Both the position numbers and the translations under genes were made by a program. DNA of 64,000 nt from a bacterium. GTDB taxonomy: Bacteria; Planctomycetota; UBA1135; GCA-002686595. Each line of letters begins with the position of its first letter. Positions within the stretch are counted from its first letter, which is position 1. Positions 2,069 to 59,263 of the stretch are shown here, piece after piece. Location: the NCBI GenBank assembly GCA_024226735.1, contig JAAELL010000252.1, forward strand, positions 1-64,000, in the 5' to 3' direction. Under the pieces are notes generated by a model that saw only the letters and a list, made by a program, of their open reading frames with translations, ran no database searches and had not been told where the DNA came from.

Positions 2069-2330
2069 GGGTCGGCGCGGATTCTGCGCGTCCGGGGGGG
2101 CCGCCACAACCCGGTGGCGCGAGCTGCGCTGAAGCCGCGCCCAAATTGCGACCAGGGCCGCGCGTCGTTATCCTGTTCCGCTTGCGCAACTCGCCCGGCG
2201 AAGCGTGTAACACCCTGTGCGATGCGGGGTAGGATCGCGCCCCCCCAGGTCCGAGCCTCCCTGCCCCTCCTCCTCCTTTGCCCCCCGCCCCGACCGCGGT
2301 CGCCGCGCGGGTGCCCGCAATTTGACCCCC

Positions 2331-4283: not shown

Positions 4284-4287
4284 GCCG

Positions 4288-5940: not shown

Positions 5941-5941
5941 C

Positions 5942-6727: not shown

Positions 6728-6729
6728 GC

Positions 6730-11098: not shown

Positions 11099-11111
11099 CG
11101 GCGGAGGGACG

Positions 11112-17871: not shown

Positions 17872-17923
17872 GGGCTCCCATGCCCGAGCCGCGCTCCGTA
17901 CGTTGGCTGAGAGGTCTACTGTC

Positions 17924-20472: not shown

Positions 20473-20521
20473 GAGCCGCCTGGCTCTTGAACGGCGCGTG
20501 CGCATCCGGGATGCTCACGTC

Positions 20522-36646: not shown

Positions 36647-38077
36647 ATGCACCAACCTGCTGTCGTCGTCTCTTGCTTCCTGTTTGCTTCGACCGCTTTC
36701 GGGCAGTGGTCGACCGACTCGCTCTCGGTGCCGCGCGGAAAACTCGCCGCGACGACCGTGGGGACCGAGGCGCTGTTCGCGGGTGGCCTGGGAGGCGGCG
36801 CTACTCACAACACCGTCGATATTTACGACGCCGCTTCGCAGACGTGGTCGGTCGCGTCGCTGTCGCTCCCGCGATCGAGTCTCGCCGCTGCGAGCGCGGA
36901 CGGCAGGGCGTTCTTCGCGGGTGGTCAAGCGCCGGCCGGGCAGTCGTCGCGGGTCGACATCTACGACGCAGCGAGCGGCACCTGGACGACGTCGACGCTG
37001 TCGCAGCCGCGCGATCAGCTGGCCGGGGCCGCAGCGGGCGGCAAGGTCCTGTTCGGCGGAGGGCGCGGCTTCAGCGCCGCCTCCAGCCGCGTCGACATCT
37101 TCGACACCCAGACGAACACTTGGTCGACGGCCGAGCTCTCCGTGCCGCGCTATCGGCTGGCGGCGACGACCGTCGGAGACGTCGTCCTGTTCGCTGGGGG
37201 GACGAGCGGTCACAGCGAGGCTCCGTTCCGCGTGGACCTGTACGACACGGCGACCGGCACGTGGTCGACGGCGACGCTACCCAATCGGCACGCCTACCCC
37301 GTCGCCACCAGCGTGGGGGACGTCGCGTTCTTTGCGGGAGACATCCACCCGAGCCTCTCCGTGGACGGGTACGACGTGCCCAACGGAACCTGGACGACGC
37401 ACGTACGGCCGGGCGGTCGCTTCCGTCTCGCCGGCGCCTCGGTCGGCGCGTTCGCGGTGTTCGCCGGAGGGGCGGGGTCGGGCGTGAACGGAGACGAGGT
37501 CGATCTCTTCGATGCGGCGACCCAGACGTGGACGACGGCGACGCTGAGCGAGCGGCGCTTCTCGCTCGCCGCGACGACGGTGCTCGGGCAGGCGATGTTC
37601 GCCGGTGGGTTGAGGAACTCGGCGTCGTTCGCCACCGTCGACATCTTCACGCCCGACCTCGGCGTGCGCTACTGCTCGCCCGCGAACGTGAACTCGAGTG
37701 GCGTACCGGGCCGGATCTCGGCGGACGGCTCGCTTCTGGTCGACGACCAGGACTTCACGCTGATCGCGGAGAACCTGCCCGCCGGCGAGTTCGGCTACTT
37801 CCTCGTCGGCTCGAACCAGGGCGCCTTCCAGCCGCCGGGCAGCCAGGGAGTCCTGTGCCTCACGTGCGGGTTCCAGGGATGCGCGGGCATCGGCCGCTTC
37901 AATCAAGGGGGGCTGATCATCCAGGGCCCGTCGGGTTCGATCGACGTCGACCTCACGAGCCTGCCGACCTCGCCGCCCACCGCGGTGCAGGCCGGCGAGA
38001 CGTGGAACTTCCAGTGCTGGTTCCGCGACCAGGGCTCCAGCAACTTCACCGACGCGCTTTCCGTCACCTTCTTCTGA
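36647..38077 (+). CDS. Secreted seven-bladed Kelch protein 1 with shared C-terminal domain
   Basis: A 476-residue protein: signal peptide (MHQPAVVVSCFLFASTAFG), seven Kelch-like blades of about 45-50 residues (pattern PRxxLAAxxVGxxxLFAGG...VDIYDAxTGTWSTA) covering about 20-340, then the shared domain (about 343-476) with VRYCSPANVNSSGVPG, EFGYFLVGSNQGAFQPPG, LCLTCGFQGCAGIGRF and ETWNFQCWFRD. A closed beta-propeller suggests binding of carbohydrate or protein outside the cell. First gene of the array; SD-like GAGGAG lies 6 bases before the ATG. Blade 5 is the most diverged. Confidence 0.85.
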   Translation: MHQPAVVVSCFLFASTAFGQWSTDSLSVPRGKLAATTVGTEALFAGGLGGGATHNTVDIYDAASQTWSVASLSLPRSSLAAASADGRAFFAGGQAPAGQSSRVDIYDAASGTWTTSTLSQPRDQLAGAAAGGKVLFGGGRGFSAASSRVDIFDTQTNTWSTAELSVPRYRLAATTVGDVVLFAGGTSGHSEAPFRVDLYDTATGTWSTATLPNRHAYPVATSVGDVAFFAGDIHPSLSVDGYDVPNGTWTTHVRPGGRFRLAGASVGAFAVFAGGAGSGVNGDEVDLFDAATQTWTTATLSERRFSLAATTVLGQAMFAGGLRNSASFATVDIFTPDLGVRYCSPANVNSSGVPGRISADGSLLVDDQDFTLIAENLPAGEFGYFLVGSNQGAFQPPGSQGVLCLTCGFQGCAGIGRFNQGGLIIQGPSGSIDVDLTSLPTSPPTAVQAGETWNFQCWFRDQGSSNFTDALSVTFF

Positions 38078-38081
38078 TCCG

Positions 38082-39530
38082 ATGCATGCACCTCATCTCG
38101 CCACACTGACTCTTCTGCTCACTGCGGCCGCGTCCGGCCAGTGGACGACCGCGAACCTCTCGCAGGCGCGGACTCAGCTCGCGGCGACCAGCGTCGGCAC
38201 CACGGCGTTGTTCGCGGGCGGGATCCACCAGGGCACGCACTACGCGACCGTCGACCTCTACGACGCCAGCACGCGTACCTGGTCGACTGCGACCCTGTCG
38301 GCAGCTCGCTCGGAGCTCGCCGCGGCGAGCGCTGGAGGCAAGGCGCTCTTCGCGGGCGGGCGTAATGCCAACGGACTGCTCTCGCGCGTCGACATCTACG
38401 ACGCCGCGAGCGGGACGTGGTCGACGGCGGAGCTCTCGATCCCGCGCCGCCAGCTCGTCGGAGCGAGCGTGGGCGGGCGCGTGTTCTTCGCGGGAGGAGA
38501 CGACGGTTCGTGGCCGCCCTCGGAGCGCATCGACATCTACGATCCCGTGACGGACACGTGGACGACCGACACGCTCCCGAGGGACCGCCAGCAGTTGGCC
38601 GCGGCGACGTGGGGGGACCTGACGATGTTCGCCGGTGGCGTCCACAGCCAGGGGCCCGTGATCACCGCCTTCATCGACGTGTACGACGCGGCGACGAGCA
38701 CCTGGTCGACCGCGGAGCTCAGCGCGGGCCGCCAGCGACTCGGAGGGACCGCGGTCGCCGGGGTCTTCCTGTTCGCCGGCGGCTCGGAATATGCGGTCTC
38801 CGACGTCGTCGACCTCTTCGACACGGCGACGGAGCAATGGACGTCGACGGTCCTGTCCGAGGCCCGGTACAACCTGGGCGCGACGTCGGTCGGCTCGTTC
38901 GCCGTGTTCGCGGGAGGCCTGCGGCGCCACGACGAGGCCACCGCTGCCGTCGACCTCTACGACGCGAGCAGCGGGACGTGGTCGACGACGACGCTGAGCT
39001 TCGCGCGCAACAACATGGGAGCGACGACGGTCGCTGGACAGGCACTCTTCGCCGGAGGCGCCGCGCCCGGGCTCGGATCCGTCGACACCGTCGACATCTT
39101 CGAACCGGAGCTGGGAGTACGGTATTGCTCACCGGCCAACCCCAACAGCAGTGGCGTCCCCGGCCGGATCTCCGCTGACGGCTCGCTCCTCGTCGCCGAC
39201 CAGGACCTGACGTTGATCGCAGAGGACCTCCCTGCCGGAGAGTTCGGGTACTTCCTCGTCGGCTCGAACCAGGGCGCGTTCCAGCCGCCGGGGAGCCAGG
39301 GGATCCTGTGCCTCACGTGCGGGTTCCAGGGCTGCTCTGGCATCGGCCGCTTCAGCCAGGCGGGGCTCATCATCCAAGGACCGACGGGCTCGATCGACGT
39401 CGATCTCACGAGCCTGCCGCTCTCTCCGCCGGTCGGTGTGCAACCCGGAGAGACGTGGAACTTCCAGTGCTGGTTCCGCGACCAAGGTTCCAACAACTTC
39501 ACCGATGCACTGTCGGTCACATTCTTCTGA
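38082..39530 (+). CDS. Secreted seven-bladed Kelch protein 2 with shared C-terminal domain
   Basis: A 482-residue paralogue of protein 1, starting 4 bases after its stop. Signal peptide MHAPHLATLTLLLTAAASG, then seven blades (for example ARSELAAASAGGKALFAGG and SRVDIYDAASGTWSTAELS) and the C-terminal domain from about residue 345 (VRYCSPANPNSSGVPG, LCLTCGFQGCSGIGRF, ETWNFQCWFRD, ending SVTFF). The domain is almost the same as that of protein 1, whereas the loops between blade strands differ strongly, as expected if loops carry binding specificity. It overlaps the next gene by one base (TGATG). Confidence 0.85.
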   Translation: MHAPHLATLTLLLTAAASGQWTTANLSQARTQLAATSVGTTALFAGGIHQGTHYATVDLYDASTRTWSTATLSAARSELAAASAGGKALFAGGRNANGLLSRVDIYDAASGTWSTAELSIPRRQLVGASVGGRVFFAGGDDGSWPPSERIDIYDPVTDTWTTDTLPRDRQQLAAATWGDLTMFAGGVHSQGPVITAFIDVYDAATSTWSTAELSAGRQRLGGTAVAGVFLFAGGSEYAVSDVVDLFDTATEQWTSTVLSEARYNLGATSVGSFAVFAGGLRRHDEATAAVDLYDASSGTWSTTTLSFARNNMGATTVAGQALFAGGAAPGLGSVDTVDIFEPELGVRYCSPANPNSSGVPGRISADGSLLVADQDLTLIAEDLPAGEFGYFLVGSNQGAFQPPGSQGILCLTCGFQGCSGIGRFSQAGLIIQGPTGSIDVDLTSLPLSPPVGVQPGETWNFQCWFRDQGSNNFTDALSVTFF

Positions 39531-40948
39531 TGCATAGATTCTTCTTTTGTGCCGTGAGCTGCGCTCTCGTTCCCAGTGCCCTCGCGCAGTGGACGACGGA
39601 CACGCTCTCGGTCGCACGCACGCAGCTCGCGGCGACGAGTGTCGAGGGCAAGGCGCTCTTCGCAGGCGGGGTCACGCTCGGGACGTACCACGACACCGTC
39701 GACATCTACGATGCGCAAACGGAAACCTGGTCGACCGCGTCGTTGTCGATCGCGCGGTCCCAGCTCGCAGCGGCGAGCGTCGGTGGGAAGGCTTTCTTTG
39801 CCGGTGGACGCAATCAGGGCGGGCGGTTCGCGCGTGTCGACATCTACGACGCGGCCACCGGCACCTGGTCGACGGCGGGGCTGTCCCAGCCGCGCGCCAG
39901 GCTCGCCGCGGCCGCCGCGGGCGGCAAGGTCCTCTTCGCCGGTGGAGAGGTCACCCTGGGCTCGACGACGCGCGTCGACATCTACGACACACAGACCGAT
40001 ACGTGGACGACGGCCGAGCTCTCCGAGCCGCGCAAGAGCCTGGCGGCGACTGCGGTGGGCGATCTCGTTCTCTTCGGCGGTGGCGATGCGAGCGACCGCG
40101 TCGACATCTACGATACGAGCACGGACACCTGGTCGACGGCATCGCTGTCCATCGCGCGGCACAGTCTAGCGGCGACGAGCGTGGGCGGACTCGCGTTCTT
40201 CGGCGGTGGCTCGGTCGGCGGGGATTCCGTCGACATCATGGACGCGGCGAGCGGCACATGGACGACAGCGACGCTGTCGGTGCCGCGCAGGAAGCTCGCC
40301 GCTACTTCGGTCGGGGCGCTGGCTCTGTTCGCCGGAGGCGCAGGTGGCTTCGGCGCGGGAGACGTGGTGGACATCTTCGACACGGGCACCCAGACGTGGT
40401 CGACATCGAACCTGAGCGTGGCGCGCCAGAGCCTGGCTGCGACGACGGTGCTGGGTCGCGTGATGTTCGCTGGAGGTTCCGTCGAGCAGGGCGGCATCTT
40501 CGACACGGTCGACATCTTCGAGCCCGAGCACGGCGTGCGCTACTGCTCGCCCGCGAACCCCAACAGCAGTGGTGCCCCGGGGCGCATCGCGTCACACGGT
40601 TCGCTCGTCGTATCCGAGCAGAGCTTCACTTTGGCCGCGGCGGACCTTCCCGTCGGGGAGTTTGGCTACTTCCTCGTCGGGTCGGGCCAGGGGACGGTTC
40701 AGCCACCCGGTAGTGACGGCGTCCTCTGCCTCGTGTGCACGTTTCAAGGCTGCGGCGGAATCGGTCGTTTCAACCAAGCGGGCCGCATCATCCAAGGGCC
40801 GGTTGGCTCGATCGATGTCGACCTCTCACATTTGCCCATGTCTCCGCCCGTCGCCGTGCAGCCGGGCGATACGTGGAACTTCCAGTGCTGGTACCGCGAC
40901 CTGGGCTCGAGCAACTTCACCGATGCCATCTCGGTGACCTTCATCTGA
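39530..40948 (+). CDS. Secreted seven-bladed Kelch protein 3 with shared C-terminal domain
   Basis: A 472-residue paralogue. The ATG at 39530 overlaps the upstream TGA and gives the signal peptide MHRFFFCAVSCALVPSALA; the longer frame upstream is antisense-like filler. Seven blades are regular and short-looped, then the C-terminal domain with VRYCSPANPNSSGAPG, LCLVCTFQGCGGIGRF and DTWNFQCWYRD. Compared with neighbours the CGFQGC motif has become CTFQGC, keeping the cysteines. Confidence 0.85.
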   Translation: MHRFFFCAVSCALVPSALAQWTTDTLSVARTQLAATSVEGKALFAGGVTLGTYHDTVDIYDAQTETWSTASLSIARSQLAAASVGGKAFFAGGRNQGGRFARVDIYDAATGTWSTAGLSQPRARLAAAAAGGKVLFAGGEVTLGSTTRVDIYDTQTDTWTTAELSEPRKSLAATAVGDLVLFGGGDASDRVDIYDTSTDTWSTASLSIARHSLAATSVGGLAFFGGGSVGGDSVDIMDAASGTWTTATLSVPRRKLAATSVGALALFAGGAGGFGAGDVVDIFDTGTQTWSTSNLSVARQSLAATTVLGRVMFAGGSVEQGGIFDTVDIFEPEHGVRYCSPANPNSSGAPGRIASHGSLVVSEQSFTLAAADLPVGEFGYFLVGSGQGTVQPPGSDGVLCLVCTFQGCGGIGRFNQAGRIIQGPVGSIDVDLSHLPMSPPVAVQPGDTWNFQCWYRDLGSSNFTDAISVTFI

Positions 40949-40952
40949 CCCG

Positions 40953-42392
40953 ATGCACAGACTTCTCATCCTTGCGTTGTCCTGTTGGTTCGCCCCGGCG
41001 GCCACCGGCCAATGGTCGACAGCGACTCTCTCGCAGCCGCGCGCCCAACTCGCCGCGACAACCGTCGGCACGCACGCGATCTTCGCCGGGGGCGTCTCGA
41101 ACGGCGCCCAGAGCGCCGTGGTCGACCTCTACGACGCGAGCACGCAGACCTGGTCGACGGCGACGCTGTCGATGGCGCGGTCCCAACTCTCGGCGGTGAG
41201 TGCCGGCGGCAAGGCGGTCTTCGCCGGGGGGCGCACGGCCGCGGGGCCGGTGGCGAGAGTCGACATCTACGACGCGGCGAGTGCGACCTGGTCGACGGCG
41301 GAGCTCTCTGCACCGCGGAGACAGATGGCGGCGGCAAGTGCCGGTGGGGTGCTGCTCTTCGCCGGTGGCGCCACTCCGAGCTCGGCGGCCTCCGATCGGG
41401 TCGATATCTACGATCCCCAGGCGGGGACGTGGACGACCGAGACACTGCCCATCGGCCGGTGGTCGCTCGCCGCGGCGGCGATCGGGGACCGCGTGTTCTT
41501 CGGTGGGGGCGCGGCCAACCCGAGCACGATGCAGGTCGACGTGTACGACACGGCGAGCGGGTCCTGGTCGGCCGAGGTTCTGTCGGAGGCGCGGCTGCAG
41601 CTGACGGCGACGTCCCTGTTCGGTCAGGCGATCTTTGCGGGCGGGGCGACGGGGATCTCCAGCGCGACCGTGGACCTCTACGACGCGGCGAGCGGCACGT
41701 GGACGACAGCGGAACTCTCCGACGGGCGCTTCAATCTGGCCGCTACGACGGTCGGCCCGTTCGCCGTCTTCGGCGGGGGGCGGTCGGACTTCCTGATCGA
41801 TTCCGACGTGGTTGACCTCTTCGATGCGAGCACCGCGACGTGGACGACGGCGACGCTCAGCGTCGAGCGCGCCGGCCTGGCGGCGACGACCGTGGGTGGG
41901 CGGGCGTTCTTCGCCGGAGGGGGCAACATCTCGTCGGGCTCGTCCGACGTCGTGGACATCTTCGAGCCCGAGCTCGGCGTCCGCTACTGCTCGCCGGCGA
42001 ACCCGAACAGCAGCGGCGTCCCCGGTCGCATCTCGGCCGACGGCTCGCTGTTCGTCGACGACCAAGACGTGACGCTGATTGCCGAGGATCTGCCCGCTGG
42101 CGAGTTCGGCTACTTCCTCGTCGGCGCGAACCAGGGAGCGTTCCAGCCGCCCGGAAGTGACGGGGTCCTGTGCCTCGCGTGCGGCTTCCAGGGCTGTGGC
42201 GGAATCGGACGCTTCAACCAGGCGGGGCTCATCATCCAAGGGCCGTCGGGCTCGATCGCCGTCGACCTCTCGAACCTGCCGACCTCGCCGCCGGTCGCGG
42301 TGCAAGCGGGCGAGACATGGAACTTTCAGTGCTGGTACCGCGACCAGGGTGCGAGCAACTTCTCCGATGCCGTGTCGCTGACCTTCTTGTAA
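40953..42392 (+). CDS. Secreted seven-bladed Kelch protein 4 with shared C-terminal domain
   Basis: A 479-residue paralogue starting 4 bases after the previous stop, signal peptide MHRLLILALSCWFAPAATG. Seven blades (MARSQLSAVSAGGKAVFAGG and similar) precede the C-terminal domain: LGVRYCSPANPNSSGVPG, LCLACGFQGCGGIGRF, ETWNFQCWYRD, ending SLTFL. The last ~265 bases are nearly identical to the end of the next gene while the blades differ, pointing to recent duplication or gene conversion of the domain. Confidence 0.85.
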   Translation: MHRLLILALSCWFAPAATGQWSTATLSQPRAQLAATTVGTHAIFAGGVSNGAQSAVVDLYDASTQTWSTATLSMARSQLSAVSAGGKAVFAGGRTAAGPVARVDIYDAASATWSTAELSAPRRQMAAASAGGVLLFAGGATPSSAASDRVDIYDPQAGTWTTETLPIGRWSLAAAAIGDRVFFGGGAANPSTMQVDVYDTASGSWSAEVLSEARLQLTATSLFGQAIFAGGATGISSATVDLYDAASGTWTTAELSDGRFNLAATTVGPFAVFGGGRSDFLIDSDVVDLFDASTATWTTATLSVERAGLAATTVGGRAFFAGGGNISSGSSDVVDIFEPELGVRYCSPANPNSSGVPGRISADGSLFVDDQDVTLIAEDLPAGEFGYFLVGANQGAFQPPGSDGVLCLACGFQGCGGIGRFNQAGLIIQGPSGSIAVDLSNLPTSPPVAVQAGETWNFQCWYRDQGASNFSDAVSLTFL

Positions 42393-42396
42393 TCAC

Positions 42397-43803
42397 ATGC
42401 ACAGGCTTACCACCATCGCTGCCGCGATCCTCGCGACTCCCGCCTTCGGTCAATGGACGACCGCGAACCTGTCCCAGCCGCGCGCCCAGCTCGCCGCGAC
42501 CAGTGTGGGGTCGAAGGCGCTGTTCGCCGGTGGCATCGACAATGGGTCGCACTCGAACGTCGTCGACGTCTACGACGCGAGCACGGGGACGTGGTCGACC
42601 GCGGCGTTGTCGCTCGCGCGCTCCGAGCTCGCGGCGGCGAGTGCGGGAGGCAAGGCGTTGTTCGCAGGCGGGCGGAACGCGAATAGTGTGGTCTCGCGCG
42701 TCGACATCTACGACGAAGTGAGCGGGACCTGGACGACGGCGGAGCTCTCGAGTCCGCGCCGCCAAATCGCGGCGGCGGCCGTCGGTGGGCGTGTGCTCTT
42801 CGCTGGCGGAGAAGGGGCCGACCGCGTCGATATCTACGACCCGGGGACGGGGACGTGGACGACGGCTTCACTCTCGGTGGCGCGCCCTCGCATCGCCGCA
42901 GCGGTGTCGGGCGACCTCGCCCTGTTCGCTGGCGGGGTTTTTGCCGTGGACGTCGTCGACCTCTACGACGCTTCGACTGACACCTGGTCGACATCGACTC
43001 TGTCGGCAGGCCGCCACAGCCTCGCCGGCGTTTCGGTTGGGAACCTCTTCATGTTCGGCGGTGGCGCCCCGACGACGGCGGTTGTCGACATCTTCGATGC
43101 GACGAGCGGGGTTTGGACGACCTCTGCGCTCTCCCAGGCGCGCTCCAACCTGGCGGCAGCCTGCGTAGGCTCGGCCGCTCTGTTCGCCGGTGGGCAACTG
43201 AGTAGCAGCGCCCGTTCCGACACCGTCGACATCTTCGACGCGAGCGATCAGACGTGGTCGACGAGCACCTTGAGCGTCGCGCGCGGCAAGCTGGCCGCGA
43301 CGTCCGTCGCGGGGCGGATCCTGTTCGCAGGTGGAGGCGCGGGCGGAGGCTCGTCGGACGTCGTCGACATCTACGAGCCCGAGCTCGGTGCGCGCTACTG
43401 CTCGCCCGCGAACCCCAACAGCAGCGGAGTCCCCGCTCGCATCTCGGCGGATGGATCGCTGTTCGTCGTCGACCAGGACCTGACGCTGATCGCAGAGGAC
43501 CTGCCCAGCGGAGAGTTCGGCTACTTCCTCGTCGGCGCAAACCAGGGAGCGTTCCAGCCGCCCGGAAGTGACGGGGTCTTGTGCCTCGCGTGCGGCTTCC
43601 AAGGCTGTGGCGGAATCGGACGCTTCAACCAGGCGGGGCTCATCATCCAAGGACCGTCGGGCTCGATCGCCGTCGACCTCTCGAATCTGCCGACCTCACC
43701 GCCGGTCGCGGTGCAGGCGGGCGAGACGTGGAACTTCCAGTGCTGGTACCGCGACCAGGGCTCGAGCAACTTCTCCGACGCAGTGTCGCTGACCTTCTTG
43801 TAG
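42397..43803 (+). CDS. Secreted seven-bladed Kelch protein 5 with shared C-terminal domain
   Basis: A 468-residue paralogue, 4 bases after protein 4, signal peptide MHRLTTIAAAILATPAFG. Seven blades are followed by the C-terminal domain (LGARYCSPANPNSSGVPA, LCLACGFQGCGGIGRF, ETWNFQCWYRD, SLTFL). It has the shortest interblade loops of the seven-bladed copies (for example blade 4 LALFAGGVFAVDVVDLYD). Its blades 1-3 are closest to those of protein 2, but its domain is closest to protein 4, a mosaic pattern. Confidence 0.85.
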   Translation: MHRLTTIAAAILATPAFGQWTTANLSQPRAQLAATSVGSKALFAGGIDNGSHSNVVDVYDASTGTWSTAALSLARSELAAASAGGKALFAGGRNANSVVSRVDIYDEVSGTWTTAELSSPRRQIAAAAVGGRVLFAGGEGADRVDIYDPGTGTWTTASLSVARPRIAAAVSGDLALFAGGVFAVDVVDLYDASTDTWSTSTLSAGRHSLAGVSVGNLFMFGGGAPTTAVVDIFDATSGVWTTSALSQARSNLAAACVGSAALFAGGQLSSSARSDTVDIFDASDQTWSTSTLSVARGKLAATSVAGRILFAGGGAGGGSSDVVDIYEPELGARYCSPANPNSSGVPARISADGSLFVVDQDLTLIAEDLPSGEFGYFLVGANQGAFQPPGSDGVLCLACGFQGCGGIGRFNQAGLIIQGPSGSIAVDLSNLPTSPPVAVQAGETWNFQCWYRDQGSSNFSDAVSLTFL

Positions 43804-43820
43804 TTAGACCTCTCTCCATC

Positions 43821-45068
43821 ATGAAACTCCACACGTCCGTCTTGACCATGCTCCTCGCTGCCGTCGCCGGCGGTCAGGTACCGGAGAACGAGATCCTCAT
43901 CAGCTCCCGAGCGGGTGGGTGTGACGGCCTGCGCCACTACCGCCTCGATGGGACGCTAGTCACGGAAGCGACCGTGGGCTCGGGCCAGACTTGGTCGGGT
44001 GCGGCGATCGCCCAGGACGGCAGCTGGGTCACCGCGTACGCGACGCCGCGGCTGTTGGCGTTCTTCGATCCGACGACCGGCGTCGAGACGATGACCTTCC
44101 CGATTCCCGAGGTCACGGGTGGTCCCGCGGATGTCGCGATCTTCGCGGACGGGACGTTCGTCGTCGCGGACCACGCCGCACGCGTGCACTTGTACTCGCC
44201 GGCCGGCGCGTATCTCGGGACGTGGACGACGCCCGGCATGGACAACTGCTGGGGTCTGCTCGTCGATGCGAACGACGAGCTATGGGTCACTGAGCACGAC
44301 ATCTTCCGTATTTGGCACTTCGCGCGCGACGGCACGTTCCTAGGCGTCATCGACACGGGCACGCGCGAAGTGGGGGACGTCGACGTCGCGCCGGATGGGA
44401 CCCTGTGGACGATCGCCGAAGACAACGGGCTCGTGCGCGCGTACACGGCCGCGGGTGCGCAGGTCGCGAACTTCCCGACTGCCGCCGGCGGCAATGCGAT
44501 GGGCATCGCGGTCGCGCCGGACGGGACGGTTTGGGTGACGGGTGGAAACGGCGTCCCGCTGTTCAACTACGACGCGAGCGGAAGCCTGCTCGGTCAGATT
44601 TCGATCGCGTGCAACGCGCGGTTCATCACGATTCCGAAGTTCAACATCGGCGTTCGTTACTGTTCACCCGCGGCTACGAACTCGAGCGGCATGCCGGCGC
44701 GGCTCTCGGTCGAGGGACGCTCGCTGATCTCGTTCAACGACGTGACGCTCCATGTCGAGGACATGCCCGCGGGCGAGTTCGGCTACTTCCTCGTCGGCTC
44801 GAATCAAGGGACGTTCATGCCGCCGGGGAGCCAAGGGCTCTTGTGTCTGTCGTGTTCGGGCTTCCAGGGATGCGCGGGCATCGGCCGCTACAACCAAGCG
44901 GGCCACATCATCCAGGGGCCGACCGGGAGCATTTCCATCGATCTGAACAGCCTGCCGCTCAGTCCACCCGTCGCCGTGCTGCCTGGGCAGACGTGGAACT
45001 TCCAGTGTTGGTTTCGTGACTTGGGCTCGAACAACTTCAGCGATGCCGTCGCCGTGACATTTCAATGA
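43821..45068 (+). CDS. Secreted NHL/SMP30-like propeller protein with shared C-terminal domain
   Basis: A 415-residue protein with signal peptide (MKLHTSVLTMLLAAVAGG). The propeller is not Kelch: units such as WGLLVDANDELWVTEHD, VGDVDVAPDGTLWTIAEDN and MGIAVAPDGTVWVTGGNG are NHL/SMP30-like six-bladed style. From about residue 277 it carries the same domain as its neighbours (IGVRYCSPAATNSSGMPA, LCLSCSGFQGCAGIGRY, QTWNFQCWFRD, AVTFQ). It sits in the middle of the Kelch array, 17 bases after protein 5, so a different propeller has been joined to the common tail. Confidence 0.85.
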   Translation: MKLHTSVLTMLLAAVAGGQVPENEILISSRAGGCDGLRHYRLDGTLVTEATVGSGQTWSGAAIAQDGSWVTAYATPRLLAFFDPTTGVETMTFPIPEVTGGPADVAIFADGTFVVADHAARVHLYSPAGAYLGTWTTPGMDNCWGLLVDANDELWVTEHDIFRIWHFARDGTFLGVIDTGTREVGDVDVAPDGTLWTIAEDNGLVRAYTAAGAQVANFPTAAGGNAMGIAVAPDGTVWVTGGNGVPLFNYDASGSLLGQISIACNARFITIPKFNIGVRYCSPAATNSSGMPARLSVEGRSLISFNDVTLHVEDMPAGEFGYFLVGSNQGTFMPPGSQGLLCLSCSGFQGCAGIGRYNQAGHIIQGPTGSISIDLNSLPLSPPVAVLPGQTWNFQCWFRDLGSNNFSDAVAVTFQ

Positions 45069-45106
45069 ATGCGCCAGTCCAATCCGGCGCCCCGTACCGA
45101 GGGACC

Positions 45107-46525
45107 ATGAAGCGACTCCTGTGTGCGGCGGCTCCGTTCCTCCTCACCTCGGTCGCGCTTGGCCAGTGGTCGACCGCGTCGCTCTCGCAGCCGCGTGCGC
45201 AGCTGGGTGCGACGAGCGTCGGAACGAAGGCACTGTTCGCGGGTGGCATCTCGAACGGCACTGCGAGCGCCGTCGTCGACATCTACGATGCGAGCACGCG
45301 TACGTGGTCGACGGCTTCGCTTTCGCTCGCGCGCTCGAAGATCGCTGCCGGCAGTGCCGGCGGCAAGGCCGTCTTCGCGGGCGGTCGCCGCACCGGAGGG
45401 CCGATCACGGCGCGCGTCGACATCTACGACGATGCGAGCGGCACGTGGTCGACGGACGAGCTGCCGATGCCGAAGGAGGCTGCGACCGCCGTCACCATCG
45501 GCGGGAGGATCTTCTTCGCCAGCGGATCACCGTCTCCCTTCGACCACATCGACATCTACGACCCTGCGACGGGGACCTGGACGACGGATGTGCTGCCGAG
45601 TGGTGGCGCGAGCGCAGCTGGCGTCGTTGGGCACTAGGGGGTCTTCACGCGGGGCTCCGACGTCGACATCTACGATGCGACGACCGACACGTGGACGCTG
45701 GACGCGCTCTCGAGCCCCCGGGGCTTCCTCTCGGGGACGGCGGTTCTGGACCGCGTCCTCTTCGCGGGAGGGGAGAATGTGAACCTGGACGCCGACGACA
45801 CGGTCGACATCTGGGACGCTTCGAGCGGGACCTGGACGATCGCGAATCTGTCCTCGCCGCGCATGCTCATGACGGCGACGTCCGTGGGCTCGTTCGCGGT
45901 GTTCGCGGGTGGGATCGACGATCTCTTCGGTGCGCCGTCCGACTTCGCCGACATCTACGATGTGGCCACCGACACCTGGACGGTCGCGCCAATCTCCGCG
46001 GGGCGCCGGGGCATGGCAGCGACGTCAGTCGCTGGCCAGGCGTTCTTCGCAGGAGGAGCTGCCGGTGGAGCATCGTTCGACGTCGTCGACATCTTCACAC
46101 CCGAGCTCGGGGTGCGCTACTGCACGCCCGCCCACGACAACTCGAGCGGTGCGCCGGCCACGATCTCAGCCGACGGCTCCTTGTTCGTGGCCGATCAGGA
46201 CGTGACGCTGGTCGCCGAGGATCTGCCCGTGGGCGAGTTCGGCTACTTCCTCGTCGGGGCGAACCAGGGGCAGTTCCAGCCGCCGGGGAGCCAGGGGATC
46301 CTGTGTCTCGCGTGCGGCTTCCAGGGCTGCTCGGGCATCGGGCGCTTCAGCCAAGCGGGGTTCATCATCCAGGGGCCAACGGGCTCGATCGACGTCGATC
46401 TCTCGGGCCTGCCCACGTCGCCGCCGGTCGCTGTGCAGGCGGGCGAGACGTGGAACTTCCAGTGTTGGTACCGTGATCAGGGCTCCAGCAACTTCACCGA
46501 TGCGGTGTCCGTGACCTTTCTATGA
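45107..46525 (+). pseudogene. Kelch protein 6, interrupted by an in-frame UAG
   Basis: The frame from ATG 45107 (SD-like GAGGGA; signal peptide MKRLLCAAAPFLLTSVALG) to 46525 encodes a full seven-bladed Kelch protein with the C-terminal domain (VRYCTPAHDNSSGAPA, LCLACGFQGCSGIGRF, ETWNFQCWYRD), but TAG at 45635-45637 interrupts it in blade 4. The reading frame is the same before and after, and alignment to Kelch protein 7 has no gap: the stop falls where paralogues have Leu (DLVLF versus H*GVF). A single base change (for example TTG to TAG), readthrough or a sequencing error could explain it. The full length would be 472 residues. Confidence 0.85.
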
Positions 46526-46532
46526 GCGCGTC

Positions 46533-47933
46533 ATGAAGATCCTCCACTCCGCAGCTTCGATCCTGTTCGCCTCGACGGCCTTCGGCCAGTGGTCGACCGC
46601 GACGCTCTCGCAGCCGCGTGCACAGCTGGGTGCGGCCAGCGTGGGGACGAAGGCGCTTTTTGCGGGCGGACTCTCCAACGGCGCCGTGAGTGCCGTCGTC
46701 GACATCTACGACGCGAACACGCGCACTTGGTCGACGGCGTCGCTGTCGCTCGCGCGCACGCGGGTCGCCGGTGCCAGCGCGGCGGGCAAGGCCGTGTTCG
46801 CCGGTGGGCGCAGCGCGGCGGGCTCCCTGGTCTCGCGCGTCGACATCTACGACGCGGCGAGCAGTACGTGGTCGACGTCCGAGATGCCGATACCGCGCCA
46901 GGTACTCGCGACGAGCTCCGGAGGCAGGATCTTCTTCGCGGGCGGGAGCCGCGTCGACATCTTCGACCCCGCGACAGGTGCCTGGACCTTGGAGATGATG
47001 CCGACAACCTACGCTTCGACCGTTGTCGCCGCCGGGTCGCTCGTGCTGTTCTCGTCCGGGAACGAGGTCGATCTCTTCGACGTGACGACGGACACGTGGT
47101 CGTCGGACGCGCTCTCCTCTGCGCGCACGTTTCCTGCGGGGACGGCGGTCCTGGGCCGCGCTTTCTTCGGGGGCGGGGAGGACCCGCAGACGTGGATGAC
47201 CGTCGACACGGTCGACATCTACGACGTTGCGACGGGCACGTGGACGATCGCGAGCTTGTCCATGCCGCGCCTCCGCATCGTGGCGACTTCCGTCGGCTCG
47301 CTCGCGATCTTCGCGGGTGGTCTGGACTCCTTCTCCGGCCCGCCGGTCGATGTCGTCGACATCTACGATGTGGCGACCGACACATGGACGGTTGCGACGC
47401 TCACGTTGGGGCGTCGCGGAATGGCTGCGACCACGGTCGCGGGCCAGGTGCTCTTCGCCGGCGGGGGCGCTGGGGGCGTATCGTCCGACGTCGTCGACAT
47501 CTTCACGCCCGAGCTCGGCGTACGCTACTGCACGCCCGCCAACGACAACTCGAGTGGCGCGCCGGCCAGGATCGCGGCGGACGGCTCGCTCTTCGTGGCC
47601 GACCAGGACTTGACGTTGATCGCCGAGGACCTACCCGCGGGCGAGTTCGGCTACTTCCTCGTCGGTGCGAATCAGGGCCAGTTCCAGCCGCCCGGTAGCC
47701 AGGGGGTCCTGTGCCTCGCGTGCGGGTTTCAGGGCTGCTCGGGCATCGGGCGTTTCAGCCAAGCGGGGTTCATCATCCAGGGGCCGACGGGTTCGATCGA
47801 CGTCGACCTCACGGGCCTGCCCACGTCGCCGCCGGTAGCGGTGCAAGCGGGCGAGACGTGGAACTTCCAGTGCTGGTACCGCGACCAGGGCTCGAGCAAC
47901 TTCACCGACGCCGTGTCCGTGACTTTCCTCTAA
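46533..47933 (+). CDS. Secreted seven-bladed Kelch protein 7 with shared C-terminal domain
   Basis: A 466-residue protein and the closest paralogue of the interrupted gene before it; both have LGVRYCTPA and DNSSGAPA where other copies have YCSPA and NPNSSGVPG. Signal peptide MKILHSAASILFASTAFG. Blade 4 (TTYASTVVAAGSLVLFSSGN) has lost the usual PRxxLAA start. C-terminal domain: LCLACGFQGCSGIGRF, ETWNFQCWYRD, SVTFL. Gap to the upstream stop is 7 bases and to the next gene 3 bases. Confidence 0.85.
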   Translation: MKILHSAASILFASTAFGQWSTATLSQPRAQLGAASVGTKALFAGGLSNGAVSAVVDIYDANTRTWSTASLSLARTRVAGASAAGKAVFAGGRSAAGSLVSRVDIYDAASSTWSTSEMPIPRQVLATSSGGRIFFAGGSRVDIFDPATGAWTLEMMPTTYASTVVAAGSLVLFSSGNEVDLFDVTTDTWSSDALSSARTFPAGTAVLGRAFFGGGEDPQTWMTVDTVDIYDVATGTWTIASLSMPRLRIVATSVGSLAIFAGGLDSFSGPPVDVVDIYDVATDTWTVATLTLGRRGMAATTVAGQVLFAGGGAGGVSSDVVDIFTPELGVRYCTPANDNSSGAPARIAADGSLFVADQDLTLIAEDLPAGEFGYFLVGANQGQFQPPGSQGVLCLACGFQGCSGIGRFSQAGFIIQGPTGSIDVDLTGLPTSPPVAVQAGETWNFQCWYRDQGSSNFTDAVSVTFL

Positions 47934-47936
47934 CCG

Positions 47937-49079
47937 ATGCGACCTCTCCTGCTGGTAGTCTTCCTCGCCCTGGCTCCATTGGCCCACGGGCAGTGGACGA
48001 CCGCGACCCTCTCCCAGCCCCGCGCTCAACTCGCAGCGACGAGCGTCGGCACGAAGGCGTTGTTCGGCGGCGGGATCGAGGCGGGTACGCCGAGTGCGGT
48101 CGTCGACATCTACGACGCGAGCACCGGGGCTTGGTCGACGGCAGCACTCTCACTCCCGCGCGCGCAGCTCGCCGCGGCGAGCGCGGACGGCGTCGCGCTC
48201 TTCGTCGGCGGACGCACTGCACAAGGGCCTGTCGCGACAGTGGATCTCTACGACGACGCGAGCGGTACCTGGTCGACGAGCGCCTTGTCGAGTACGCGCG
48301 TGCGCCACGCTGCGACGTCCGTGGCCGGATGGATCCTGTTTGGTGGGGGCACCTCCAACTCTTCGGGTGACGGCATCAAGGTGGAGATCCTGGACACGGT
48401 CACCGGTGCCTGGACGCTGGCGTCGCTTTCCGAGGAGCGCTACCACCTCGCCGCGACGACGGTCGGTTCGTTCGCCCTCTTCGCGGGAGGGAGCACTTCG
48501 ATCGGTCGGTCGGATGCCGTCGACATCTTCGATGCCCGCTCCGCGACGTGGACGACGGCGGCGCTCAGCTTCGCACGCCAAAGGCTCGCCGCGACGACGC
48601 TCGGCGGGCAGGCGTTCTTCGCCGGCGGTGCCGACTCCTCGGGCGCGTACGACGTTGTGGACATCTTCACCCCCGAGCTTGGGGAACGGTTCTGTTCGCC
48701 GGCGAACGACAACAGCACCGGCGTCCCCGCACGCATTTTGGCGCAGGGCTCACCCGTCGCCGTCGACGACGACTTGACGCTGATCGCCGAGGACTTGCCT
48801 GCCGGTGAGCTCGGCTATTTCCTCGTTGGTCCGAGCCAGGGGCAGGTGCAGCCGCCGGGCAGCGATGGGGTCCTGTGTCTCGCTGGCAACATCGGCCGTT
48901 TCAACCAGGCGGGGTTCATCATCCAAGGGCCGTCCGGTTCGATCGACGTCGACCTCACGGGCCTGCCCACGTCGCCGCCGGTGGCGGTGCAGCCGGGCGA
49001 GACGTGGAACTTCCAGTGCTGGTACCGCGATCAGGGCTCGAGCAACTTCACCGACGCCGTGGCGATCACTTTTCTGTGA
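47937..49079 (+). CDS. Secreted five-bladed Kelch protein 8 with shared C-terminal domain
   Basis: A 380-residue protein, last of the array. Signal peptide MRPLLLVVFLALAPLAHG. Only five Kelch blades are present (QPRAQLAA, LPRAQLAA, STRVRHAA, EERYHLAA, FARQRLAA), two fewer than the paralogues. The C-terminal domain lacks the CGFQGC insert: VLCLAGNIGRFNQAG, then ETWNFQCWYRD and AITFL. It overlaps the convergent redoxin-PQQ gene by 14 bases. Confidence 0.83.
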   Translation: MRPLLLVVFLALAPLAHGQWTTATLSQPRAQLAATSVGTKALFGGGIEAGTPSAVVDIYDASTGAWSTAALSLPRAQLAAASADGVALFVGGRTAQGPVATVDLYDDASGTWSTSALSSTRVRHAATSVAGWILFGGGTSNSSGDGIKVEILDTVTGAWTLASLSEERYHLAATTVGSFALFAGGSTSIGRSDAVDIFDARSATWTTAALSFARQRLAATTLGGQAFFAGGADSSGAYDVVDIFTPELGERFCSPANDNSTGVPARILAQGSPVAVDDDLTLIAEDLPAGELGYFLVGPSQGQVQPPGSDGVLCLAGNIGRFNQAGFIIQGPSGSIDVDLTGLPTSPPVAVQPGETWNFQCWYRDQGSSNFTDAVAITFL

Positions 49080-50823
49080 GGTCGACGCAGACGAGCTCCT
49101 CGTCGTTGCGCAGGAAGACGTGCCTGTAGGCGAACGCCGGGTGCGCCCAGCAGACGCCCTCGCGCTGGTTCAGCTGGGCGAGCGTCGGCTCGATCAGCTT
49201 CACGCGGTCTTTCTCCTCGAAGCCCTCGGGCGAGAGGCGCGCGATGACGAGCTCGCCGCGCTCGTTGAACATCCACGTCGTTTCGCCGTTCTGCACGAAG
49301 TGGATGTTCGCCCAGCGCGCGCGGGGGACGGCCGTCCGGTCCTCCCAGACGCGTGAGCCGTCCGCGAGCTTCAGGCAGCGCAGCTCCCCGTAGCTGTCGA
49401 CGCCGTAAATGTGCTCGCCCAGGATTAGGGGCGTCGAGATGATGCTGTGCAGGCCGTCGGTGCTGCGCTCGTTCTGGCCTTTGCGGCGCCAGACTTCCTC
49501 CACGGCGAGCTCGTCCTGCGCGAGGCGCAGGAGGACGCAGCCGTCGTAGAAACCCGTCACGAAGAGCTCGTCCCCGTGCATGACGGGTGTCGCGACGCCG
49601 AGCGGCATCTTGCTCGCCGCGAACGGATGCTCCCAGAGCAGCTTGCCCGTCTTGGGGGCGACGCCGAGGATGCGGTCGCCCGTCCAGCACACGACGACGC
49701 GCTGGCCCGCTTGCGTGACGACGATCGGCGCCGCGTAGTTGCCGCGGTCGTCGAAGGCCTTCCAGCGCTCCTCGCCCGTCTTCGCGTCGAACGCGACCAG
49801 GTACGCGCCCTCGGCCCCGCTCACCGGAACGATCAAGAGCCCGTCCTCGAGCAGAGGAGAGGCGGCGATGCCCCAGATCGGCATCCGGATTCCGTACGCC
49901 TCGTTCAGCGCGTGGCTCCAGAGCACGTCGCCCTTGGCCGCGTCGAAGCAGAACAGGTGGCCCATCGAGCCGAGCGAGTACGCGCGTCCATCCTCGACGA
50001 GCACCGCGCAGCGCGGGCCCGCTTCGTAGCGGACCTTCTCGTAGACGCAGTCGTAGGTGTGCGACCAGACGCTCGCACCCGTCTTCCAGTCGAAGCAGAG
50101 GACGCGCTCGATCTCGCTGGGCTCCTCGGAGCGGTCCATCACGTACACGCGACCGTCGGCGACGGTGGGACCGGTGTAGCCGCTGGCGATCTTCGTGCGC
50201 CAGCGCACCTTCGGGCCGTCCTCGGGAAAGCTCGCGAGCACGCCCTCCTCGCTCCAGGTCCCGTCGCGCCCCGGGCCGCGCCATTGTGGCCAGTCGTCGC
50301 CCTCTTGCTGGGAGAAAGTCGTCTTGAGCTTGCCGACCGACTCGTAGTGGTCGTCGATCCTCCCGCGGTACACGAGCCGGTCCTCGACGTCGACGACGAA
50401 CGCCTCGGGCACGTGCGTTGGGCCGAGTCGCTGGGCGAGGTTGCCCGAGGCGTTGAACAGCACCGTCAGCGCGAGCTCGTATTCGGCCCGGTGCTCGCGC
50501 GCCGCGACGCTCGTCACGCTCGGGTCGGAGATCACGCCGTCGAGCTCGACGTCCAGCTCGCGCGCGATGGCGAGCAGCTCGTTCAGCCGCGGGACGTAGC
50601 GGTTCGCGATCGGGCAGGTCGTGTCCAGGAACACGAGGGCGAAGGGGCGCGCGCCCGCGCCGAGCGTGTGCACCTTGCCGTCGAGCGCCAAGGCACGGAC
50701 GCCTCGAGTGCTCGAAACCGAGGGTATCGCTTGGGCGGCGCCCTGCGCTGGCGGGGCGGCGGTGACGGCGGTGACGGTGGTGACGAGTGCGCTCCAGAGC
50801 GCGATGGCGACCTTGATCTTCAT
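49066..50823 (-). CDS. Redoxin-PQQ beta-propeller fusion, secreted
   Basis: A 585-residue protein with a signal peptide (about 1-30). Residues 45-165 look like a thioredoxin-fold redoxin (FALVFLDTTCPIANRYVPRL; a single Cys at the active-site position, so a CxxC pair is absent), followed by about 180-580 of PQQ/BamB-like propeller repeats (WRTKIASGYTGPTVADGRVY, FDAKTGEERWKAFDDRGN). Such fusions are frequent in planctomycetes; the function is not established. Its start codon abuts the opposite-strand remnant at 50822. Confidence 0.78.
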   Translation of the reverse strand: MKIKVAIALWSALVTTVTAVTAAPPAQGAAQAIPSVSSTRGVRALALDGKVHTLGAGARPFALVFLDTTCPIANRYVPRLNELLAIARELDVELDGVISDPSVTSVAAREHRAEYELALTVLFNASGNLAQRLGPTHVPEAFVVDVEDRLVYRGRIDDHYESVGKLKTTFSQQEGDDWPQWRGPGRDGTWSEEGVLASFPEDGPKVRWRTKIASGYTGPTVADGRVYVMDRSEEPSEIERVLCFDWKTGASVWSHTYDCVYEKVRYEAGPRCAVLVEDGRAYSLGSMGHLFCFDAAKGDVLWSHALNEAYGIRMPIWGIAASPLLEDGLLIVPVSGAEGAYLVAFDAKTGEERWKAFDDRGNYAAPIVVTQAGQRVVVCWTGDRILGVAPKTGKLLWEHPFAASKMPLGVATPVMHGDELFVTGFYDGCVLLRLAQDELAVEEVWRRKGQNERSTDGLHSIISTPLILGEHIYGVDSYGELRCLKLADGSRVWEDRTAVPRARWANIHFVQNGETTWMFNERGELVIARLSPEGFEEKDRVKLIEPTLAQLNQREGVCWAHPAFAYRHVFLRNDEELVCVDLTEK

Positions 50824-51706
50824 GGATCCTCCGGCCCCAAGCTACTCGATGACACGTCTGCCGTTCGTGATCGCCCCCGCCGCCGCCCTGACCGGTGACC
50901 GGATCGTGATCGGCGATCAGCACGACAACGAAGCCGGGCCGCTCGCGGGTGCGGTCTACGTCTACGAGCGCGTTGCGGGTGACTGGTCGTTTGCCGCCAA
51001 GCTCACCCCCGACCCTGCGCACTACCCGGGCCAGATGGGGACGACGATTGCCATCCGCGGCACGACGATCGCTACGGGCGTGCCGCGCAGCGGCGAGTTC
51101 CAACACGACGGGGGCGTCCAGCTCTTGCGCGAGCTGCCCGGCGGATGGGCGCGGGGCGCGTATCTCGTGGGGACGCGACTGGAGCGTAGCGAGCTCGGCT
51201 GGGGGCTAGCGCTCTCCGACCGGCATCTCGCCGCGGGAGCCCGCATGCTCGACGACGGAATCGGGAACACCGGTGGCGCGTTCACCTACCGCATGGACTG
51301 CGCGATCGGGACCAGCTACTGCGGACCGGCCGTTCCCAACTCGAGTGGCGCGTCAGCGTCGATGGCGGCCGAGGGCAGCGCGCGGATCGTCGATCGGGAC
51401 GTGGTCCTCGTCGCGAGCGGTCTGCCGGTCTCGGAGCTCGGGTACTTCCTCGTCGCGCGCCGCCAGGGGCTGGCCCAGCCGGCGGGCTCGGCGGGGTTTC
51501 TGTGCCTGGGCGGCGAAGTCGGTCGCTTCCGCGCGATCGCGGAGATCATCGAAGGGCCAGAGGCGAGTCTGCGCATCGATGTTGGCGCGCTTCCCCTCGC
51601 GGGTGCGCCCGGCGCCGCAGTGGGAGAGACGTGGAACTTCCAGTGCTGGTTCCGGGACGGCTCGACGAGCAGTTTTACCGACGCTGTTGCGATCCGATTC
51701 GAGTGA
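50822..51706 (+). pseudogene. 5'-truncated FG-GAP protein with shared C-terminal domain
   Basis: The open frame gives about 294 residues: two to three FG-GAP-like units (LTGDRIVIGDQHDNEAG, GAVYVYERVAGDWSFAAKL) and the C-terminal domain (TSYCGPAVPNSSGASA, FLCLGGEVGRF, ETWNFQCWFRD). It has no signal peptide, its first FG-GAP unit starts mid-motif, and its possible starts (50822 or 50849) leave no promoter space because the opposite-strand gene begins at 50823. All family members elsewhere are secreted, so I read it as a fragment cut off by a rearrangement; translation from 50849 is not excluded. Confidence 0.65.
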
Positions 51707-56512: not shown

Positions 56513-58141
56513 ATGAAGCACTTCGAATCGATGCGCGCACTGGCGAAACGCGCGGCAGTTGTTTGCCTCTACGCCCTTCCCGTTCTGGCGCTCGATCGGA
56601 TTGCCATGGCGCAATTCAGCGGTGACGCCGTGATCCTCGATCCGGGGACAGGCGAGACGGCTGATTTCTTTGGCCTCACCAGCTCACTGTCGGGCGATCG
56701 CCTCGCCGTCGGTGCGATGCGTGCCTCGAACCCCGAAGGTCGGGTGTACCTGTTCGAGCGCAGCGGCGACACGTGGATCTCGATCGGCGCCGTCGCCGGT
56801 GATGCCGACTCCAACCAGCTCTTCGGCTCCGGCGTCGAGCTCTTCGGGGACACGCTGATCGTCGCCGACAACGAGCCGTACAACGGCAAGGCGCGCTTCC
56901 ACGCGTTCGAGAGCGTCGGTGGGGAGTGGGCGCCGACCCAGGTGTTCATGACTAGCGGCGAGGCGGGTGAGAGCGCACGCCTCCTCACGCTCGCCGCGGA
57001 CTTCGCGATCATCGGTGCGCCGAAGGCCGACCACCCGCAGGCGAACGAAGCCGGAGCGGTCTATTTCTTCGAGCGGGTCGGCGGCGTGTGGACCGAGACG
57101 CGCAAGCTCTTCGCCGATCGGCCGCGCGACGGCGCGCAGTTCGGTGGCGCTGCTGCGCTCTCCGGGAACCATCTCGTGATCGGCGAGCAGACCCACGAGT
57201 ACAAGGACAACGCCGTGTACTTCTTCGAGCGTGGGCCCAACGGCTGGGCGGAAACCGAGCGCGTACTCGCCAGCGACGGATCGCCGTGCGATCTGTTCGG
57301 CAAGGAGCTCGCGATCGAGGGCACCCTGGCCATCGTCGCGGCGCCCGAGAAGAACGGCGCGTGGCACCGCGAGGGCGCCGTCTACGTATTCGAGCGCCGC
57401 GCATCGGGCTGGGTCGAGACCGGTTCGTTGACGGAGACGTTCGCCAACCGGGGTGCGTTCGCGAACCGCTTCGGGGGGACGGTGGCGCTGTCGGGCAGGA
57501 GCCTGGTCGTGGGGGCGGCGGGGGCGACGCCCGCCCCGCGGGTCGGAGGGCAAGTCTTCCTCTACACCCGTGAAGCGGACGGCTCTTGGACGCGCGAGTG
57601 GAGCGTCGACGGAGAGGAGTTCGCCTACCTCGGGCTGAGCGTCGAGATGAACGAGCGCTGGATGATGGCCGCGGCTCCCGATGCGATCAGTCAATCACCC
57701 AACGGATCACGCGCCTACGTCTGGCGGCGGGAAGGCGGGGCGGTCGCGACGAGCTACTGCCACCCTGACCCCGCTTCGACCGGAGGCGTCGTGGGGCTGC
57801 GCGCCGTCGGCAGCGAGACCGTCGCGCAGAACGAGCTGACGTTCCTCGTCGACGGGCTGCCGCAAGGCAGCTTCGCGTTCCTGCTCGCGTCGCGCGGCGC
57901 GGCCGACCGGCCGTTCCACGCAAGGCAGGCGATGCTTCTGTGCCTCGCGGATCCACTCGAGCGCGCCTCGGGAGTGTTCGGTGGCCCCGCGTTCCAGCAC
58001 ACGGTCTCGGTTCCGTTCGACCTCACATCCTCACCGAACGGGATCGTCGTTCTTCCCGGGGAGAGGTGGCGGTTCCAGGTGTGGTATCGCGACGGGGGGA
58101 CGACCAACACGTCGGTCGCCGTGTCGATCGACTTCCGGTAA
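56513..58141 (+). CDS. Secreted FG-GAP repeat protein with diverged C-terminal domain
   Basis: A 542-residue protein: signal peptide (about 1-33, ending RIAMAQ), six to seven FG-GAP-like blades of the form FGxxxSLSGDRLAVGAxxxxxGRVYLFERSGDTW, and a C-terminal domain from about residue 417 that is a distant member of the shared family (TSYCHPDPASTGGVVG, MLLCLADPLERAS, ERWRFQVWYRDGG). Blades lack the full DxDGDGxxD calcium loop. The ATG at 56513 is preferred; ATG 56531 would also leave a signal peptide. Ends 5 bases from a convergent gene. Confidence 0.8.
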   Translation: MKHFESMRALAKRAAVVCLYALPVLALDRIAMAQFSGDAVILDPGTGETADFFGLTSSLSGDRLAVGAMRASNPEGRVYLFERSGDTWISIGAVAGDADSNQLFGSGVELFGDTLIVADNEPYNGKARFHAFESVGGEWAPTQVFMTSGEAGESARLLTLAADFAIIGAPKADHPQANEAGAVYFFERVGGVWTETRKLFADRPRDGAQFGGAAALSGNHLVIGEQTHEYKDNAVYFFERGPNGWAETERVLASDGSPCDLFGKELAIEGTLAIVAAPEKNGAWHREGAVYVFERRASGWVETGSLTETFANRGAFANRFGGTVALSGRSLVVGAAGATPAPRVGGQVFLYTREADGSWTREWSVDGEEFAYLGLSVEMNERWMMAAAPDAISQSPNGSRAYVWRREGGAVATSYCHPDPASTGGVVGLRAVGSETVAQNELTFLVDGLPQGSFAFLLASRGAADRPFHARQAMLLCLADPLERASGVFGGPAFQHTVSVPFDLTSSPNGIVVLPGERWRFQVWYRDGGTTNTSVAVSIDFR

Positions 58142-58146
58142 GTCGG

Positions 58147-59263
58147 TCAGGGGCAGAAGCGCACGCGCAACCCGTCCGACAGGTTGAACCCTGCGCCCAT
58201 CGCCTGCGGGTCGCGGAACCAGCATTGGAAGTGCCACGTCGAGCTCGGCGTGATCGAACTCAGGTCGAAGTCGACCGTCGACACCGCGTCGCCGCTCGCG
58301 TCGAGCTGCGTGACGCCGAGCCGATGCAACGTTCCGCCCGAGATGCACAGCGCGCCGTCGCCGAGCGGAATCGGGACCGAACGGTCTTCGGCGTACACGA
58401 AGATCGCCGTCTGGTCCGGGACCGCCGCGGTGACGGTCAGCTCGAACGTGTTGGCTGCGTGGCTGAGCGAGCGCCCGTAGCCGATCCGCGCGCCGGGTCC
58501 GGCCGAATGGGGGCTTGCGGCGCAGTAGGTCCGGGGCAGCTCGGGCGCCGCGGTCAGCACGTACACCGCCCCGGTCGCGGTCATCGCGGGCGCGGCCGTC
58601 AGGACGAAGTCCCGAGGCGCCCAGGAAGTCGGATGTGGACAGACCCTCGTGCGTCCGGATCAGCGCTCCGCTGTTTCCCGAGTAGACGTACAGGCGCCCG
58701 GCGTTGGTGCCAGCGGTGTCGTCCGCCGGCGCGCCGACGACGACGTCGTCGAAGCCGTCCCCGTCGACGTCGAGCGCGGTGCTGACGGAGGCTCCAAAGC
58801 GGTCGCCCGTGATCCCCGCCGACAGCGTATGGGCCAGGGTGCCGCTCGGGCCGAGCAGGATGTAGGCGACGCCGGGGCTCCCCGCGTTCGACGGCGCGCC
58901 GACGATCACATCGCCGAAACCGTCTCCGTCGACGTCCCCCGCGGGCGCGACGTCCGTTCCGAGCTGTGCAAAACTCGACGCGCCGTCGAACGTGAAGAGC
59001 GCTGCGCCGCCTACGCCGGCGTAGACGTACGCTCGACCCGCGTTTGTTCCCGCTCCGTCGTTGAACGGCGCGCCGACGATCAGATCTTGGACTCCGTCGC
59101 CGTCCACGTCTCCCGCGCTCAGGCCGACCCAGCCGAACTGGTCCCCTGGAGCCTCCCCGAGGAACGTGTCACCCAGATTGCAGGTTTCCCAAACCTGGGC
59201 CGGGGCGGCGGGGGAGAGAACGAAGAGCGAGAGAAGGGGTCCGAGGATCGGTGTCAGATTCAT
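58147..59263 (-). pseudogene. FG-GAP (integrin-like) protein, frameshifted, with shared C-terminal domain
   Basis: ATG at 59263 gives a signal peptide (MNLTPILGPLLSLFVLSPAAPAQ) and three FG-GAP repeats with calcium loops (GDVDGDGVQDLIVGAP, GDVDGDGFGDVIVGAP, LDVDGDGFDDVVVGAP). The fourth starts as SDFLGASG, then the correct sequence continues in another frame as DFVLTAAPAMTATGAVYVL to the C-terminal domain (RTYCAASPHSAGPG, GALCISGGTL, STWHFQCWFRD). Compared with the repeats, about 11-12 residues including the calcium loop are missing at the junction near 58600-58620, so a small out-of-frame deletion is the likely cause. Confidence 0.8.

Follow-up and report, generated by a model that had tools for sequence, protein, structure and literature searches.

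We found that hundreds of otherwise unrelated exported proteins of a planctomycete end, at the stop codon, in a module of about 130 residues, which is a genuine and unnamed domain and is massively used by this organism. Most likely, the domain acts as an address tag by which exported proteins are placed or held at the cell surface. Here, the window refers to the whole 64,000-nt stretch of DNA that was analysed, and the host genome to the 9.0 Mb planctomycete draft in which it lies. To our knowledge, the transport of planctomycete proteins over the outer membrane and their retention at the surface are poorly known. If the sorting reading is true, an undescribed system for protein sorting lies behind the pattern of this domain. 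With a tag on perhaps 6% of the proteins of the genome, hundreds of proteins would be marked in one step as secreted or surface-exposed, and the domain itself provides a test for the missing machinery.

Fourteen copies had been claimed for the window in the initial annotation, and alignment confirmed that all of them are in place and homologous. Ten lie in the region 36647-51706 and the others belong to the frames at 23712, 56513, 58147 (minus strand), and 60926 (minus strand). Nine of the 14 make up one head-to-tail, nearly gapless array (36647-49079), comprising eight Kelch genes and one NHL-like gene; one more copy is on an FG-GAP fragment ending at 51706, and four are found elsewhere, on both strands. 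All genes of the array are on the plus strand. Kelch proteins with a signal peptide are encoded at 36647-38077 (domain 37661-38074), 38082-39530 (domain 39114-39527), 39530-40948 (domain 40532-40945; the true start is 39530, not 39308), 40953-42392 (domain 41976-42389), 42397-43803 (domain 43387-43800), 46533-47933 (domain 47517-47930), and 47937-49079 (domain 48681-49076). The NHL/SGL-like propeller at 43821-45068 carries a signal peptide and the domain at 44649-45065. In the remaining Kelch gene, 45107-46525 (domain 46109-46522), the copy at 45638-46525 is part of a gene that starts at about 45107 and in which an in-frame TAG (45635-45637) breaks the reading frame.

The carriers beyond the array have other bodies. 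On the plus strand, Pfam identifies a beta-helix plus FG-GAP_2 protein at 23712-26801, whose domain aligns at 26385-26798; an FG-GAP_2 fragment at 50804-51706 with no clear signal peptide, which may be 5'-truncated (domain 51308-51703); and an FG-GAP_2 protein at 56513-58141 with a signal peptide and a divergent domain at 57746-58138. On the minus strand, a secreted protein with no named body domain is encoded at 60926-62710, and its divergent domain (60929-61381) is devoid of the first conserved cysteine, C8. The gene at 58147-59263, also on the minus strand, is frameshifted, since its signal peptide and body sit in the overlapping frame 58031-59263 and its divergent domain (58150-58536) in another frame. 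The two broken carrier genes, with the TAG at 45635-45637 and the frameshift in 58147-59263, are either pseudogenes or draft-assembly errors. Altogether, these carriers agree with the earlier view that the module follows Kelch, NHL-like, FG-GAP, and beta-helix/FG-GAP bodies.

The position of the domain within the proteins is highly constrained. In a first set of loci, 156 of 158 real matches end 0-4 residues before the stop codon, and the other two are at assembly N-gaps. Among 297 distinct ORFs of a larger set, no protein has two copies and there are no tandems; broken frames aside, only two clear carriers have the domain away from the C-terminus. One is a protein of ~1650 aa encoded a short way past the end of the window, at L166:4193-9157 (C252:68193-73157 on the host contig), in which the signal peptide is directly followed by the domain and then by about 1480 aa with TIG-, PQQ-like, and Kelch-looking parts. 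The other, in L171, has the domain before a Calx-beta-like end. Hence, the statement that the domain is always C-terminal holds for nearly all copies, which lie at the stop codon, and fails for these two carriers, both of them from the host genome. The proposed check for signal peptides was borne out as well: 92 of 108 complete domain genes pass a signal-peptide rule, versus 176 of 363 other genes. Because this home-made rule, at a permissive setting, passes about half of the control genes, the difference represents an enrichment and not a proof. Most domain genes that fail the rule have a visibly broken frame or a wrongly placed start, and the cleavage sites of the carriers are mostly AxA^Q. 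Nearly all complete carriers appear to have Sec signal peptides.

The domain is a well-defined sequence family. Over 127 diverse copies, residue conservation reaches 98% at C8, 100% at C69, 99% at R82, and 96% at F140; W118, F120, Q121, W123, R125, and D126 are each conserved in at least 95%, and N131 is also near-invariant. This pattern bears out the shared anchors by which the module was recognised. Of the 127 copies, 125 have both C8 and C69, which probably form a disulfide. As for the fold, whose prediction had been suggested as a check, AlphaFold2 gives a confident all-β sandwich (pLDDT 93.4, pTM 0.88). Searches with single members, the 14 copies, and the 127 copies returned no significant family match in Pfam or NCBIfam, and no convincing solved structure was found in the PDB by sequence. 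The first reading of the module as one that matches no named family is therefore upheld in Pfam, NCBIfam, and the PDB. Our search of openly available journal papers turned up no account of it.

Alternatively, the domain could be an ordinary Ig/FN3- or CBM-like module for extracellular binding, which sticks secreted proteins to a polymer, to the cell's own matrix, or to a substrate, with no sorting involved. A cell-surface or matrix-binding domain of this ordinary sort could yield much of the observed pattern, and the two proteins in which the domain is not C-terminal are in line with it. Moreover, Foldseek hits are limited to generic FN3/Ig-like sandwiches, along with a few secreted proteins of the copper-binding or LPMO type, and CBM49 is weakly matched by two of the 127 members (E 0.055). 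Nothing in the PDB or among the BFVD viral models reached E<0.001, with TM at most about 0.45. Membership of a generic carbohydrate-binding or Ig/FN3 family was rejected, as there is no significant match in Pfam, in PDB sequences, or in PDB folds. Binding modules are usually found in tandem and at varied positions, but about 290 proteins each have a single copy of the domain, nearly always at the stop codon. The bodies to which it is attached span from sulfatases to propellers, and sister lineages have the whole set of copies exchanged for another domain. A plain binding role is the main rival of the sorting reading, and we regard it as unlikely.

The host genome holds a large number of carriers. 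We counted 399 sites in it that fit the exact DNA pattern of W-x-FQ-x-W-x-RD, versus none for a reversed-pattern control. In sampled regions, this strict motif is carried by 83% of the profile-detected copies, so that about 480 copies are likely; the genome thus likely holds about 400–480. A profile search retrieved at least 150 matches, all with E<1e-37. The bodies are diverse, as 106 of them match 66 Pfam families, mostly propellers, with Kelch, NHL, and FG-GAP included; LamG, C-type lectin, GH16, and β-helix bodies occur as well. By NCBIfam, further bodies are sulfatases, subtilisin-like proteases, and members of several 'choice-of-anchor' families. Among its matches, choice_anch_B, GloVer, NxxGxxAF, and ScyF are known for variable C-terminal anchors. 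In other bacteria, members of the 'choice-of-anchor' families vary in their C-terminal anchor.

Across the phylum, the domain was detected in 28 of 392 sampled genomes, 18 of them from the host's family (host genome included), and carriers outside this family mostly have a single copy or few copies. Within the family, 42 of 61 sampled genomes have at least 24 copies and 19 have none or one, with no genome in between. The named relatives with the domain are almost all Planctomycetota. They include the cultured Saltatorellus ferox Poly30, in which the localisation of the carriers is therefore directly testable.

Seven Kelch genes in the window are intact, which allowed us to compare domain and body in the same proteins. 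On average, the domains are 82% identical, versus 57% for the bodies, and four-fold degenerate sites differ at 0.43 in the domain and 0.50 in the body, which is near-saturated. Because silent sites are near-saturated in domain and body alike, the conservation of the domain mainly reflects selection on the protein, and gene conversion is ruled out as its main cause. In the array pair 40953-42392 and 42397-43803, the domains are 96% identical and the bodies 59%, with a silent-site difference of 0.19 in the domains versus 0.45 in the bodies. This pattern shows a local and recent recombination of the domain. Such recombination, and the tandem arrangement of the nine carrier genes, would be consistent with an expansion devoid of any sorting role, in which the domain is a cap that stabilises beta-rich secreted proteins and has spread as gene ends were duplicated and recombined. 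Yet the strong conservation at the protein level despite near-saturated silent sites and the maintenance of at least 24 copies in all 42 domain-bearing family genomes sampled argue against this scenario, and enzyme bodies fold elsewhere without such caps. Altogether, we consider it very improbable.

Six genomes with no copy or one copy of the domain still encode many FG-GAP_2 proteins, and each of those inspected ends in another unnamed domain of about 120-130 residues. The commonest replacement, here called type B (LGSxSGTxPG...LPL...HHA...SNA; L219:1527-1913, L230-L249), reaches up to 70 copies per genome and was C-terminal in all 20 newly fetched copies. Like the domain of the host, type B is a predicted β-sandwich of ~130 residues (confident, pLDDT 97), lies at the C-terminus of FG-GAP_2 bodies, and occurs in many copies per genome. 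NCBIfam has no named family for it, and profile comparison detected no homology between the two domains. Among the 61 family genomes, 42 are rich in the host's domain, 14 in type B, five in neither, and none in both. In an rpoB tree, a single branch (support 97/99) separates the domain-rich genomes from the others. This mutual exclusion therefore represents one clade-level switch, and its Fisher p-value does not count as repeated independent evidence.

In its overall behaviour, the domain resembles a C-terminal sorting domain: two exceptions aside, it is found at the C-terminus, once per protein, on diverse exported bodies, and in many copies per genome. A sorting, anchoring, or secretion-recognition role, as proposed in the initial annotation, is still the best reading of its C-terminal position, the signal peptides, and the diversity of the bodies; a partner machine did not emerge. 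From the sequence family, its position, the signal peptides, the body diversity, the purifying constraint, and the lineage replacement, all of them observed, we infer a receptor and a destination, reached by export or by anchoring. We think it somewhat more probable than not that this is a lineage-specific sorting or anchoring domain. In such a system, carriers would cross the inner membrane via Sec, using their AxA^Q signal peptides, and would then fold in the periplasm. One common partner in the envelope would recognise the disulfide-bonded beta-sandwich at the C-terminus through its conserved surface, including the W-x-FQ-x-W-x-RD hairpin, and would either pass the carrier over the outer membrane or retain it at the surface. 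If all carriers share such a receptor, this would account for a single domain on hundreds of bodies that are otherwise unrelated, for its conservation where the bodies diverge, and for the presence of another unnamed C-terminal domain on the same bodies in sister lineages. More tentatively, and with a chance that we place a little short of even, planctomycetes of this family would use an undescribed system for outer-membrane export or surface attachment that reads the folded beta-sandwich at the C-terminus. Receptor and domain would then form a separate pair in each sister lineage, and a secretome of hundreds of proteins would as a whole have switched from one domain to another. The existence of two interchangeable domain types means that genome comparison could reveal the partner.

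The nearest functional analogy is found in the type A and type B CTDs of the Bacteroidota T9SS. The T9SS CTD is a C-terminal β-sandwich that serves as an outer-membrane export signal (PMC4804311), and anchoring partners have been described for it (PMC9143113, PMC12618676). Both kinds of domain are C-terminal beta-sandwiches on Sec-exported proteins, with diverse bodies and many paralogues per genome, but the host's domain is longer and likely has a disulfide. The CTD models TIGR04183, TIGR04131, and PF18962 had no match among the Pfam and NCBIfam results for the 14 and the 127 members. The translocon SprA/Sov was above the cut-off in none of the 61 family genomes, a search in which the control genomes themselves contain no SprA. 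Membership of the T9SS CTDs was rejected. PEP-CTERM proteins are likewise a large group of secreted proteins with only a C-terminal homology region in common (PMC1569441). This feature of PEP-CTERM/exosortase, GlyGly-CTERM, and MYXO-CTERM is shared by the host's domain, and some of its bodies match families otherwise seen with PEP-CTERM. Unlike these tags, which consist of a short motif, a TM helix, and a basic tail, the domain comprises ~130 folded residues, and the C-termini of the carriers end in a beta-strand (e.g. -DAVSVTFL). The host genome has no exosortase (PF09721), and of the 42 domain-rich genomes eight have one and 34 do not; a pairing with exosortase was rejected.

The window also contains, at 2217-21238, an FHA protein together with PilM-like, PilO-like, and prepilin-type N-methyl proteins; a protein of 1706 aa encoded there weakly matches LamG. 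This cluster is a type IV pilus/T2SS-like pseudopilin locus. The T2SS exports folded periplasmic proteins, and the domain could be an element read by one of several secretin machines, its carriers being released or retained outside. The PilM/pseudopilin cluster of the window would fit such recognition, as would the presence of secretins in all 61 family genomes, at 4-10 copies in all but one. However, genomes without the domain are equally rich in secretins, so nothing ties secretins to the domain, and the link to pseudopilins that had been suggested earlier is not discriminating. In addition, we know of no domain common to the known T2SS substrates. Recognition by the T2SS is thus quite improbable. 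Altogether, searches for SprA and secretins in the 61 family genomes, and for exosortase in the host and the 42 domain-rich genomes, revealed no receptor, protease, or translocon that tracks the domain.

Further distinct C-terminal domains were observed on FG-GAP_2 proteins of relatives (L214, L215, L217, L221-L224, L226, L228), ending in G...YxQA...D...SNA. A mixed third set of domains has a weak profile match to the host's domain (hhalign probability 27%), clearest at the terminal hairpin, and one sequence of this set was recruited by iteration with E 4e-4, versus 0.18 for the best decoy. These suggestive matches raise the possibility that the domains of the third set are perhaps distant relatives of the host's domain through the last hairpin.
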